Assembly: GCF_900182925.1 (NCBI RefSeq)
Contig: NZ_LT900024.1
Span: 992,001-1,056,000 of the forward strand
DNA length: 64,000 nucleotides
Direction: 5' to 3'
From: Psychrobacter sp. LV10R520-6
Lineage (GTDB): Bacteria > Pseudomonadota > Gammaproteobacteria > Pseudomonadales > Moraxellaceae
Shown here in pieces: positions 21,736-55,345 of this stretch; the stretch's first letter is position 1; the number at the start of each line of letters is the position of its first letter. The notes under the pieces were generated by a model. It was given only the letters and a program-made list of their open reading frames with translations, searched no databases and was not told the origin of the DNA. A program made the translations under genes and the position numbers.

Positions 21736-21841
21736 CTTAAACTATAAATTTAAAAGAAGCTGAATGTGATAAATACTTAGCAGTTTTAACAACCCTCGCG
21801 CAGAAATCCCCTACCTCTAAGGTAGTCGGCTGAATGCGTCA

Positions 21842-21870
21842 TTGGTTATATATTGATATTACATTATAAT
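21842..21870 (+). promoter_or_regulatory. Promoter-like motif in the left end of the TnpB element
   Basis: TTGGTT, a 17-base spacer and a perfect TATAAT follow directly after the conserved left-end block ending GCGTC. The motif lies about 60 bases before the tnpB ATG. The mini-element has a promoter-like motif at the corresponding position. Confidence 0.65.
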
Positions 21871-21930
21871 TATAAAAAATATTATGAGGTGTTATTATAT
21901 CTATACTAACCAAAAGAGTAAAACGATTGC

Positions 21931-23085
21931 ATGAGCAAGCCCATTATTAAAGCCTACAAATTCAGGCTGTACCCGACTGATGACCAGCAAGTGTCCTTTG
22001 CTAAGTCATTCGGCTGCGCTCGTTTTATATGGAATAGAATGCTTGCTGATAAAATAAAACATTATGACTGTCATAAAGAAAGCTTAAAAAATACACCCGC
22101 TCAGTATAAAAAAGAGTTTGAATGGCTAAAAGAAGTGGATAGCTTGGCATTGGCCAATGTGCAACTCAACCTACAAAAAGCCTTCCAGAGCTTCTTCAAA
22201 TCACCTACTTTCGGCTTCCCAAACTTCAAACACAAAGGTAAAAAAGACAGTTATACCACCAATAATCAAAAAGGTACGATTGCGGTTGGCTTGAACAGTA
22301 TTAAGTTGCCAAAAATCGGTCACATCAAAGCGATTATTGATAGAAAAATTACAGGGCTGGTTAAAAGCGCCACCATTACCAAGACTGCTACTGGTAAATA
22401 CTTTGTCAGTATTTTGGTTGAAACGGTAGCCGTCGATCTACCTAAAACCCAATCAAATATCGGTATTGATTTAGGATTAACAGACTTTATCGTCTTATCG
22501 GACGGTACAAAAGGTGCTAATCCTAAGTTTCTAGCGAGACTTCAAGGCAAGCTTGCCAAGGCGCAACGTATTTTATCCAAACGTGCGCGGGTGGCAAAAT
22601 CTGCCAATCGTAAATTATCCGAAAGTTGCAATTACCAAAAGCAGAATACCAAAGTCGCTAAAATTCATGAGCGGATCAGAAACACCCGCACTGACTTCTT
22701 ACATAAAACCTCATTCAATATCGTCAAAAACCACGACATTATTGCGATTGAGGATTTGAACGTCAAAGGGTTGCTCAAAAACCATAAGCTTGCTAAAGCA
22801 ATCGCTGACAGCTCATGGTCAACCTTTACCCATATGCTGACCTATAAAGCTGACTGGTACGGCAAGACCGTTATCAAGGTAGATAGATGGTATCCCTCGT
22901 CTAAAACCTGCTCTTGCTGTGGTCATATTCTTGGCAAAGCGGAACTTAAACTAAGCGACAGAGAGTGGGATTGCAAAATTTGCCTGACCCACCACAACCG
23001 CGACATTAACGCCAGCATCAATATCCTAAATGAAGGGTTGCGATGCTTGCAAACTCTCAAAAAACCCTTGGTTCAAGGGTGTTAG
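21931..23085 (+). CDS. tnpB: TnpB RNA-guided endonuclease of an IS200/IS605-type element
   Basis: TnpB uses a right-end-derived omega-RNA to cut DNA next to a transposon-adjacent motif; it is the ancestor of Cas12. All catalytic residues are present: D180 in GIDLGLTDF (RuvC-I), E274 in IAIEDLNVKG (RuvC-II) and D358 in HHNRDINAS (RuvC-III). Between them is a four-cysteine zinc finger (CSCCG ... CKIC). The N-terminal YKFRLYPTDDQQ and CARFIWNRML match the OrfB helix-turn-helix region. At 384 residues it is full length, with no frameshift. Its 3' end overlaps the predicted omega-RNA, as is usual. Activity is inferred, not shown. Confidence 0.9.
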   Translation: MSKPIIKAYKFRLYPTDDQQVSFAKSFGCARFIWNRMLADKIKHYDCHKESLKNTPAQYKKEFEWLKEVDSLALANVQLNLQKAFQSFFKSPTFGFPNFKHKGKKDSYTTNNQKGTIAVGLNSIKLPKIGHIKAIIDRKITGLVKSATITKTATGKYFVSILVETVAVDLPKTQSNIGIDLGLTDFIVLSDGTKGANPKFLARLQGKLAKAQRILSKRARVAKSANRKLSESCNYQKQNTKVAKIHERIRNTRTDFLHKTSFNIVKNHDIIAIEDLNVKGLLKNHKLAKAIADSSWSTFTHMLTYKADWYGKTVIKVDRWYPSSKTCSCCGHILGKAELKLSDREWDCKICLTHHNRDINASINILNEGLRCLQTLKKPLVQGC

Positions 23086-23179
23086 CTTGGTAAATTTACC
23101 TAACCGCTGGTGCAGAACATCGTACTAAGTATGGGTATTACCCAAGAAACCCCTACCTCTTAGGTAGTGGGTAGTTCAT
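23060..23179 (+). ncRNA. Predicted omega-RNA scaffold of the TnpB element
   Basis: The 3' end of tnpB and the downstream element end form serial hairpins: CCCTTG-GTT-CAAGGG (23065-23079), GGTAAATTTACC, GGGTATTACCC and the terminal CTACCTCTTAGGTAG. The same series occurs in the mini-element with compensatory changes. By analogy with known TnpB systems, the guide would be the flanking sequence from about 23180 onward, which is the tail of metF. The 5' end of the RNA is not determinable here. Confidence 0.65.
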
Positions 23180-54039: not shown

Positions 54040-54939
54040 ATGATAGATAATTTACGCGGTATGGCCGTGTTCGCCAGTGTGGTCGGACACGGCTCTTTCA
54101 GTGGTTCAGCTCGCGAGCTTGGTATCACAACCAGCGCGGTCAGCCAACAAATTCGGGCACTAGAAAATGAGCTGGGTGTGGTATTACTACATCGCTCGAC
54201 TCGTAAGCTGAGCCTAACGGAAGCGGGTGCGAGCTTTTATGACGCTGCAAAAGACGTGGTCAGCGCTGCTGAGCAAGGCAGAATTAAAGTTAATCAGCTG
54301 CGTGATGAATTAGCAGGTAGTTTACGAATCGCTACCACGCCTGAGCTCGGGGTTAATCATATTTTACCGGCTTTATCCACTTGGATGGCGGCACATGACG
54401 ATCTGAGTATCACTTATTTGGCAGACAATCATTATATCGATATGATTGATGAGCGTATCGATATTGCCGTTCGTATGAGCCCAAATATCAATGACTCAAC
54501 CTTAAGCAGTCATCCACTGACTGATGTGCGTCAAATGCTGGTCGCCTCACCACAGTATTTACGTCAACACAAAAAGATCGAAACCCCCAAAGATTTAGCC
54601 GACCATCATCTAATTTGTATCGATATCATGAAAGACTCTAATCATGTTGATTTGACTCAGACAGAAACGAGTAAAAAAACACGAGCAAAAATGACCTCGC
54701 GTATCCATACCAATAACGTCTTTATGGCGACCACTTTGGCTAAAGAAGGCCATGGTCTGGTTAGAATGATGGAGATGGATGTTAAAAAAGAGCTAGAGAG
54801 TGGCGAATTGGTCGAAGTATTGACTGGCTTTCAGCTACCAAGCTTTGTGCTATATGCCGTCACCTTAAACCGTGAGCAACAACCGGCAAAAATTACTCGT
54901 TGCCTAGAAGTATTGAAAAAATACTTTCATGCTAGCTAG
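54040..54939 (+). CDS. LysR-family transcriptional regulator
   Basis: A 299-residue regulator of the LysR family (CrgA-like subgroup). The N-terminal helix-turn-helix is SFSGSARELGITTSAVSQQIRALENEL. The effector domain begins near GSLRIATTPELG. AGGTG precedes the ATG. No divergent partner is adjacent (dnaX converges from the left), so its target is not apparent. The 16-base direct repeats before it may be its own sites. Confidence 0.9.
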   Translation: MIDNLRGMAVFASVVGHGSFSGSARELGITTSAVSQQIRALENELGVVLLHRSTRKLSLTEAGASFYDAAKDVVSAAEQGRIKVNQLRDELAGSLRIATTPELGVNHILPALSTWMAAHDDLSITYLADNHYIDMIDERIDIAVRMSPNINDSTLSSHPLTDVRQMLVASPQYLRQHKKIETPKDLADHHLICIDIMKDSNHVDLTQTETSKKTRAKMTSRIHTNNVFMATTLAKEGHGLVRMMEMDVKKELESGELVEVLTGFQLPSFVLYAVTLNREQQPAKITRCLEVLKKYFHAS

Positions 54940-55005
54940 AGCTCATACCTTTTAATATTTTAGCGCAGAAGTCCCCTACCTCTAAGGTAGTGGGCTGAAT
55001 GCGTC

Positions 55006-55034
55006 TTGACAAAATCTCGCTTAGTTGCTAAATT
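55006..55034 (+). promoter_or_regulatory. Promoter-like motif in the mini-element left end
   Basis: A perfect TTGACA, a 17-base spacer and TAAATT follow immediately after the conserved left-end block ending GCGTC. Transcription would start near 55041 and run through the right-end hairpins. Confidence 0.65.
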
Positions 55035-55040
55035 CTACTT

Positions 55041-55244
55041 AAGGAACAGCATTTCAGACCTTTAGAGCAATCTAATAACATCATCGTTAGTCTGTCACCG
55101 AATTGCTTGAAAACAGCAATAATGTGAACCCTCGGTGCGAGGGGGATAGCTCGGTAAACTTGCCTAACCGCTATTGCAGAACATCGCAAATAAGTATGGG
55201 TATTACCCAAGAAACCCCTACCTCTTAGGTAGTGGGTAGTTCAT
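55041..55244 (+). ncRNA. Candidate stand-alone omega-RNA
   Basis: The transcript predicted from the motif at 55006 would contain the hairpins CCCTCG-GTG-CGAGGG (55128-55142), GGTAA-AC-TTGCC, GGGTATTACCC and the terminal CTACCTCTTAGGTAG. These are in the same order and spacing as after tnpB. The guide would begin near 55245. Start and function are inferred. Confidence 0.55.
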
Positions 55245-55305
55245 TTCAGTGGTTGTATGAAGAATTACATCAATAGTGAAGAGTAAAAAATAAATATAGA
55301 ACATC

Positions 55306-55345
55306 AAAAAAGCCCCTCAATAATTTTATTGTGGGGCTTTTTTTT
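55306..55345. terminator. Terminator upstream of the argD stop
   Basis: AAAAAAGCCCC then TCAATAA pairs with TTATTG and GGGGCTTTTTT. It is symmetric, so it can end argD (-) and any plus-strand transcript leaving the mini-element. Confidence 0.9.

Follow-up and report, generated by a model that had tools for sequence, protein, structure and literature searches.

A non-autonomous IS200/IS605-type mini-element with a promoter-like site and a predicted omega-RNA scaffold in a Psychrobacter chromosome

Features of the locus

The window, the whole 64,000-nucleotide stretch of DNA analysed here, covers positions 992001-1056000 of a single-contig 3.22-Mb Psychrobacter chromosome (genome G000). On its plus strand lies a full tnpB element of 1389 bp (21791..23179), which stands behind TTTAAC, has no tnpA inside and contains a tnpB gene for an RNA-guided endonuclease of 384 amino acids (21931..23085). 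Also on the plus strand lies a non-autonomous mini-element of 288 bp (54957..55244), preceded by TTTAAT (54951..54956); for this family, TTTAAY is the insertion target and presumably also the TAM, and for ISDra2 TnpB, likewise, the TAM is the insertion target. The mini-element is one of six full-length copies in the chromosome, three at 100% identity and the others at 99.6, 99.3 and 98.2%, which argues that it is not a product of chance and agrees with the dispersed family claimed in a first-pass annotation of this DNA. The same annotation had noted that the element shares both ends with the tnpB element, and this holds: bases 1-46 (of the 282 then assigned to it) are 94% identical to the left end of the tnpB element, and bases 165-282 are 89% identical to its right end.

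Neither tnpA nor tnpB lies inside the mini-element, which sets it apart from autonomous IS200/IS605 elements, and there is no plausible gene within it, as had been claimed. Five ORFs of at least 20 amino acids overlap it, the longest being a TTG-initiated ORF of 60 amino acids on the minus strand; the longest on the plus strand has 41. In our own ORF reading of 3.3-kb stretches, none of the six copies interrupts an ORF of at least 100 amino acids. A subterminal hairpin at the left end (54973..54994, plus strand), presumably a TnpA substrate, is 95% identical over 22 nt to a hairpin at the right end (55215..55236, plus strand), which would be both a TnpA substrate and the last stem of the omega-RNA. 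The two hairpins have the same orientation and are thus direct repeats. We considered a classical MITE and rejected it, as the ends ATTTTAGCGC and GTAGTTCAT are not inverted repeats by eye and the hairpins repeat directly.

Boundaries and insertion target

The right end at 55244 stands as first annotated, whereas the earlier start at 54963, giving 282 bp, is probably six bases too far in. TTTAAY was found 6-8 nt before a GCGCAG box in 43 of the 47 left-end matches among all loci examined, and we therefore put the start of the element at 54957. The four misses are one mini-element copy with ATTAAC (L005), a right-end hairpin returned by the same search (L109) and two matches with no motif (L106 and L142). 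TTTAAY precedes five of the six mini-element copies (TTTAAT three times, TTTAAC twice; ATTAAC once), and the bases left of GCGCAG are not unrelated flank, since all six copies read TTAAY-ATTTTA-GCGCAG. The right boundary GTAGTTCAT, ending in TTCAT, is common to all six, and the flanks beyond it are unrelated. Both the family as a whole (43/47 left ends) and the mini-elements (5/6) are hence inserted 3' of a short fixed target. The element is absent from the orthologous spacer in 17 of 19 loci of relatives, those in which both flanking genes were found, the spacers being too diverged for alignment at the level of single bases; in the other two stretches (L157 and L158) both flanks were not found.

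A conserved promoter-like site and a leader specific to mini-elements

Just inside the left end, TTGACA-17-TAAATT (55006..55034, plus strand), with TG before the -10 box, matches the promoter consensus at 10 of 12 positions. The site is present as first annotated, but by itself it is weak evidence for a promoter, because the 801-bp stretch around it contains four sites scoring at least 9/12 (against a mean of 1.8 in shuffles), although only this one reaches 10. Its conservation is a stronger argument than its improbability. A relative of the mini-element in genome G017 has TTGACA-17-TAAGTT, with 6 of the 17 spacer bases different by our own count, a truncated copy in genome G086 has the rough equivalent TTTACA-18-TAGACT, and TG precedes the -10 box in the mini-elements of all three species. 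In three tnpA-bearing elements of G000 (L062-L064), TTGACT occupies this position to within one base, suggesting that the site may be an ancestral left-end promoter; the TTGAC box is missing at that place in the tnpB-only elements of this genome, namely the window tnpB element, L065 and L066.

Downstream lies a leader specific to the mini-elements (55041..55122, plus strand), with UUAGA-GCAA-UCUAA at 55062-55075. This five-pair hairpin can be read in all three species, its GNRA-type loop being GCAA here and GUAA in the two relatives. A stretch of 37 nt, CAGCATTTCAGACCTTTAGAG-Y-AATCTAATAACATCA, is common to the three species and varies only at Y; searches across the genus returned no match to it in any tnpB element, and no match outside the three mini-elements covered element bases 85-150. 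In the three species pairings the leader core is identical at 42/46, 43/46 and 42/45 positions, and the promoter stretch at 23/30, 19/31 and 13/31. A 21-mer of the leader matched one genome contig, from Psychrobacter sp. APC 3426; exact matches to it were not found in viral contigs, and plasmid records gave no match. We rejected the leader as a structured domain, since its predicted fold, taken alone, is about as stable as that of shuffled sequences (z -0.7). According to the accessible part of PMC10097598, the RNA of ISDra2 loses its 5' portion by trimming, and cutting does not depend on that portion.

Structure of the predicted omega-RNA scaffold

An omega-RNA scaffold is predicted at 55105..55244 (plus strand; 34-pair model, with stem P1 at 55129-55143), and its counterpart in the tnpB element at 23038..23179 (plus strand), the last 117 nt of which are 89% identical to the mini-element. 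We assembled 42 distinct right ends, four of them from mini-elements, and aligned 36 of the 38 others, leaving aside L114 and L117, which are close to L110. An adjacent tnpB was among the matches listed for 33 of these 36; the exceptions are L147, L150 and L130, the last at a contig end with a partial tnpB by eye, and two of the right ends in the model come from tnpB copies that contain stops (L120 and L087). RNAalifold predicted 34 pairs from the 36 right ends, and in 14 of these pairs both partners vary. A covariance model built from this alignment, without any mini-element, matched 55105-55244 with 136.2 bits (E 4.5e-42, cmsearch); the window tnpB element, which is included in the model, scored 147.1 bits. 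The mini-element keeps 33 of the 34 model pairs, in line with the earlier claim that it retains the hairpin series following tnpB, and the G017 relative keeps 32. The broken pair, a U-A changed to C-A in P2, is the same in G000 and G017, and G017 breaks a second.

Mini-element and window tnpB element differ by 12 substitutions in 115 aligned positions. These touch six pairs, of which two carry double changes, three carry single changes that still pair and one is broken. When the same 12 substitutions were placed randomly (20,000 draws), 4.9 pairs were broken on average; only 0.7% of the draws had one broken pair or none, and 0.5% had two or more double changes. Both the covariance match and the sparing of pairs beyond random placement support preservation of the mini-element scaffold as a structure, one that ends at the right boundary as a TnpB omega-RNA does. 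As the test takes the window tnpB element as ancestor, part of the preserved structure, together with the substitutions that maintain it, may be older than the loss of tnpB. With L005, a nearly identical mini-element copy, set aside, the other 41 of the 42 distinct sequences pair in 99.1% of cells. Shuffles average 92.8% and slid structures reach 29-47%, the slid control leaning towards the structure derived from the same sequences; further pair types did not exceed shuffles in these 41 sequences (33 vs 34.6).

From P1 onward, the G017 relative (90% identical) shows six differences over 116 positions, of which one falls in a paired column. Identity between the G000 and G017 elements is alike in the scaffold (75/83), the left end (43/48) and the whole leader (79/87), and only the right-end tail stands out, with 41/41 identical positions. 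The region 55041-55260 folds better than shuffles (z -2.4). A candidate pseudoknot like that of ISDra2, joining the 3' end to the stretch that precedes stem 1, gives no clear support, since by eye it comprises three pairs in the mini-element (GAA/UUC) and is shorter in G017 (UAA) and in most tnpB right ends (AAA). At gathering scores the window had no match to any Rfam family, and loose thresholds yielded one chance-level match (E 2.9) in 54900-55300.

Predicted guide and likely terminator

The guide is predicted to be the first 16 nt of the right flank (55245..55260, plus strand), with its start set by the IS200/IS605 rule in the accessible text of PMC10711439 and its length by the corresponding part of PMC10097598. 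Predicted guides differ at every one of the six copies, and since the copies sit behind TTTAAY (5/6) and the guide is the right flank, each is predicted to aim at the empty site of its own copy. At the occupied site of the window copy the TAM is absent and GTTCAT stands in its place, so that TnpB carrying this guide would be expected to leave the insertion intact and to cut the empty allele. With up to two mismatches, TTTAAY followed by 12 bases of the window copy's guide occurs in the genome at the occupied site and at one other, where TTTAAY is intact and the guide has two mismatches; a reversed control pattern also occurs at one site. Further downstream, a stem-loop AAGCCCC...GGGGCTT followed by a T-run (55310..55339), read directly and lying outside the loop limit of 8 of the hairpin scan, is a likely terminator that could end the precursor RNA.

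Partner genes in the chromosome

The TnpB encoded at 21931..23085, the likely partner of the mini-element, matches NCBIfam NF038281 with 459.7 bits and has the Pfam domains PF07282, PF01385 and PF12323. At the positions that we take to be catalytic, its D, E and D residues are identical to those of its best PDB match. Within G000, the right end of the mini-element is closest to that of the element encoding this TnpB (89% vs 82%). The earlier picture of one TnpB serving the family needs a correction: besides one broken gene, the chromosome contains five uninterrupted tnpB genes of this family, counting the one at 21931 (100, 73, 73, 71 and 71% identical to the latter). G000 also has three cognate tnpA genes (100, 98 and 85%) and two tnpA+tnpB elements with matching ends and full reading frames.

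A further tnpA+tnpB element (L064, G000:C1:2424776-2426804) is broken, its tnpB lying in two pieces about 0.8 kb apart, one of them with a TAG, and the match stopping at residue 282 of 384. Other IS200/IS605 genes are found in the chromosome, for example ten tnpB copies at 43% identity to that of the window and four at 38-39%; tnpB-like matches number 39 in total, some of them pieces of one gene.

Distribution in the genus and family

The mini-element family is narrow. Long mini-element matches were found in at least three of 105 Psychrobacter genomes, G000 included, when the best candidates (up to seven) of each genome were considered. The match in G017 is full-length at 90% identity and that in G086 has 84% identity and has lost its right end, so that only two full-length lineages were found. 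Rescoring all 18 candidates in G017 and the best 40 of 48 in G086 yielded no further long match, and no match was seen in other genera among 348 genomes of the family, for which the best two candidates per genome were considered. The window tnpB family is present at E 1e-100 in 22 of the 105 genomes, among them all three with mini-elements. The probability that both mini-element genomes other than G000 would carry tnpB by chance is about 4% (21x20/(104x103)), ignoring relatedness. As for tnpA, G000 combines three genes with six mini-element copies, in G086 a single close tnpA accompanies the one truncated copy, and G017 has one copy and no close tnpA (best 35%).

Two genomes deserve mention for the abundance of related ends. 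G086 has at least 32 right ends (best 40 of 48 candidates) and at least 18 tnpB copies (best 18 of 36) with only one close tnpA, pointing to a largely tnpB-only element at high copy number. In G087, contig ends (for instance C6, C38 and C75) account for at least 24 of the 40 scored matches, which reach 47-53 nt into the left or right family end, and no tnpB was found at E 1e-100; this could be a high-copy element, possibly short, the inside of which is missing from the assembly.

A probable PATE-like element that may use its relatives' proteins in trans

Having no transposase gene and sharing its hairpins with an autonomous IS200/IS605 element, the mini-element resembles the PATEs. We consider it moderately probable that it is a PATE-like, non-autonomous IS200/IS605 element, mobilised by TnpA in trans and retained with the help of a family TnpB that its own omega-RNA recruits. 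A tnpA gene at another place in the chromosome would supply the protein that mobilises the element 3' of TTTAAY, as its shared ends and copy number suggest, and transcription from the internal promoter would yield a precursor comprising about 200 nt and the adjoining flank. The scaffold would be trimmed and bound by a TnpB of the family, most likely that encoded at 21931, which would use about 16 nt of the right flank as guide. After excision, the complex would cut empty sister sites (TTTAAY plus flank), and repair from an occupied copy would restore the element, in the manner of donor retention by TnpB. We include this cutting step because of the retention role proposed for TnpB, which likely helps to maintain its transposon (PMC10278001, accessible part). 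Under this reading, the mini-element would be a satellite using both proteins of its relatives in trans.

A more specific version, on which we would put slightly less than an even chance, is that of a satellite guide-RNA transposon, the sole product of which would be a promoter-driven omega-RNA with a leader of its own; it would parasitise one relative's TnpA to move and other relatives' TnpB to be retained, so that one nuclease would serve many dispersed guides in trans. The first-pass annotation, which was sound as to the anatomy of the element, had proposed a distributed network of RNA-guided nuclease activity. Dispersed copies do exist, but free choice of targets does not follow from them: guides are set by the insertion site and each matches its own empty site, as donor-site retention would require. 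The term network therefore overstates the case, and the family is better read as many copies, each with a self-directed guide.

The principal alternative is that of a plain PATE or MITE, in which only the ends matter, to TnpA, and the scaffold and promoter are unused relics of an internal deletion. PATEs are described as spreading although they carry no genes, in some cases perhaps as nothing more than 52-bp ends (PMC3119063, accessible part), and in G000 single-hairpin forms of 46-47 bp (L068 and L069) stand behind TTTAAC; six near-identical copies indicate recent spread, leaving little time for decay, the copy in G086 has lost its right end, and the scaffold is no better conserved than other parts of the element when G000 and G017 are compared. 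Set against this, TnpA should need far less than a 120-nt scaffold, judging from the family, the substitutions spare base pairs beyond chance, and G000 and G017 have both kept the hexamers of the promoter and the 37-nt stretch of the leader, while the promoter spacer diverges. We regard this alternative as unlikely, though it deserves serious weight.

A decoy or brake, in which the transcribed scaffold would bind TnpB and compete with the omega-RNAs of full elements to lower their activity, fits a scaffold that is kept and present in multiple copies, and the two kinds of scaffold would compete by mass action. Such a role has no need of an exact right boundary (6/6) and TTTAAY (5/6), both of which TnpA could require too, and we consider it improbable. 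Adoption of the guide RNA by the host, for regulating or cutting particular targets, is very improbable: the absence of interrupted long ORFs fits it, but the guides differ at every copy and the element is missing from the orthologous spacer in the 17 of 19 relatives' loci with both flanks found, and the window TnpB keeps its presumed catalytic residues, unlike TldRs, the nuclease-dead TnpB regulators that have lost their RuvC catalytic residues. A TldR-type partner was rejected on the same identity of the D, E and D residues.

Comparison with known systems

Stand-alone IscB omega-RNAs and HEARO RNAs without an ORF were reportedly described by Altae-Tran in 2021 and Weinberg in 2009. Like the mini-element, they are guide loci without a nuclease gene that are presumably served in trans; they belong to IscB rather than TnpB and are not known to form a homogeneous mobile family. 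PATEs were described in 2011 in Haloquadratum walsbyi, one of them containing tnpB-end sequence (PMC3119063). Like the mini-element, they are transposase-free, have near-terminal palindromes related to IS605-type transposons and a short targeting sequence on the left, and form homogeneous multi-copy families. They are archaeal, and the accessible text of that paper mentions no guide-RNA scaffold, promoter or covariation, whereas the mini-element is bacterial and has a scaffold recognised by a covariance model, a promoter-like site and a shared leader.

ISDra2 has a right-end scaffold of similar size (116 nt), followed by a 16-nt guide, and the terminal GUUCA of the mini-element agrees with its bases at -6, -5, -3 and -2; its omega-RNA (reRNA) overlaps tnpB (PMC10097598, accessible part), whereas the scaffold of the mini-element stands alone, with a promoter-like site and an extra leader. 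The sotRNAs of haloarchaeal IS200/IS605 elements (Rfam RF02656/RF02657) are transcribed non-coding RNAs at the 3' end of tnpB and, unlike the predicted RNA of the mini-element, are linked to that gene (accessible part of PMC12558985). A promoter-driven, TnpB-less omega-RNA element is not described in the accessible parts of PMC3119063, PMC10097598, PMC8730458, PMC11870625, PMC10711439, PMC12558985 and PMC10278001, an absence that weighs little, as the subscription literature lies mostly outside this set. What appears to be new here is thus a bacterial PATE-like family in which an omega-RNA scaffold, tested as a structure, is combined with a shared leader and a promoter-like site.

Loading of the RNA by TnpB, if it occurs, would mean that RNA-guided cutting can serve retention in trans, and a transposon could persist with neither its own transposase nor its own nuclease. 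TnpB would then be a shared resource open to cheating, and the family would provide a natural split of nuclease and guide, a step expected on the way from TnpB towards CRISPR effectors.

Shorter derivatives of the family also occur. In G000, the single-hairpin elements of 46-47 bp (L068, near 1393540 of C1, and L069, near 684690) consist of a left end fused to the right-end tail, and similar ones are found in other genomes (L142, L143 and L145); four of the five, all except L142, stand behind TTTAAY. They resemble the 52-bp forms that core deletions have produced among PATEs (PMC3119063, accessible part). Finally, remnants with only a right end were seen in G073 (L137, C1:2513632-2513688, 54 nt) and in G000 (L067, C1:3133768-3133834, 67 nt), the one in G073 directly following TTTAAC, as if the left part were cleanly missing.
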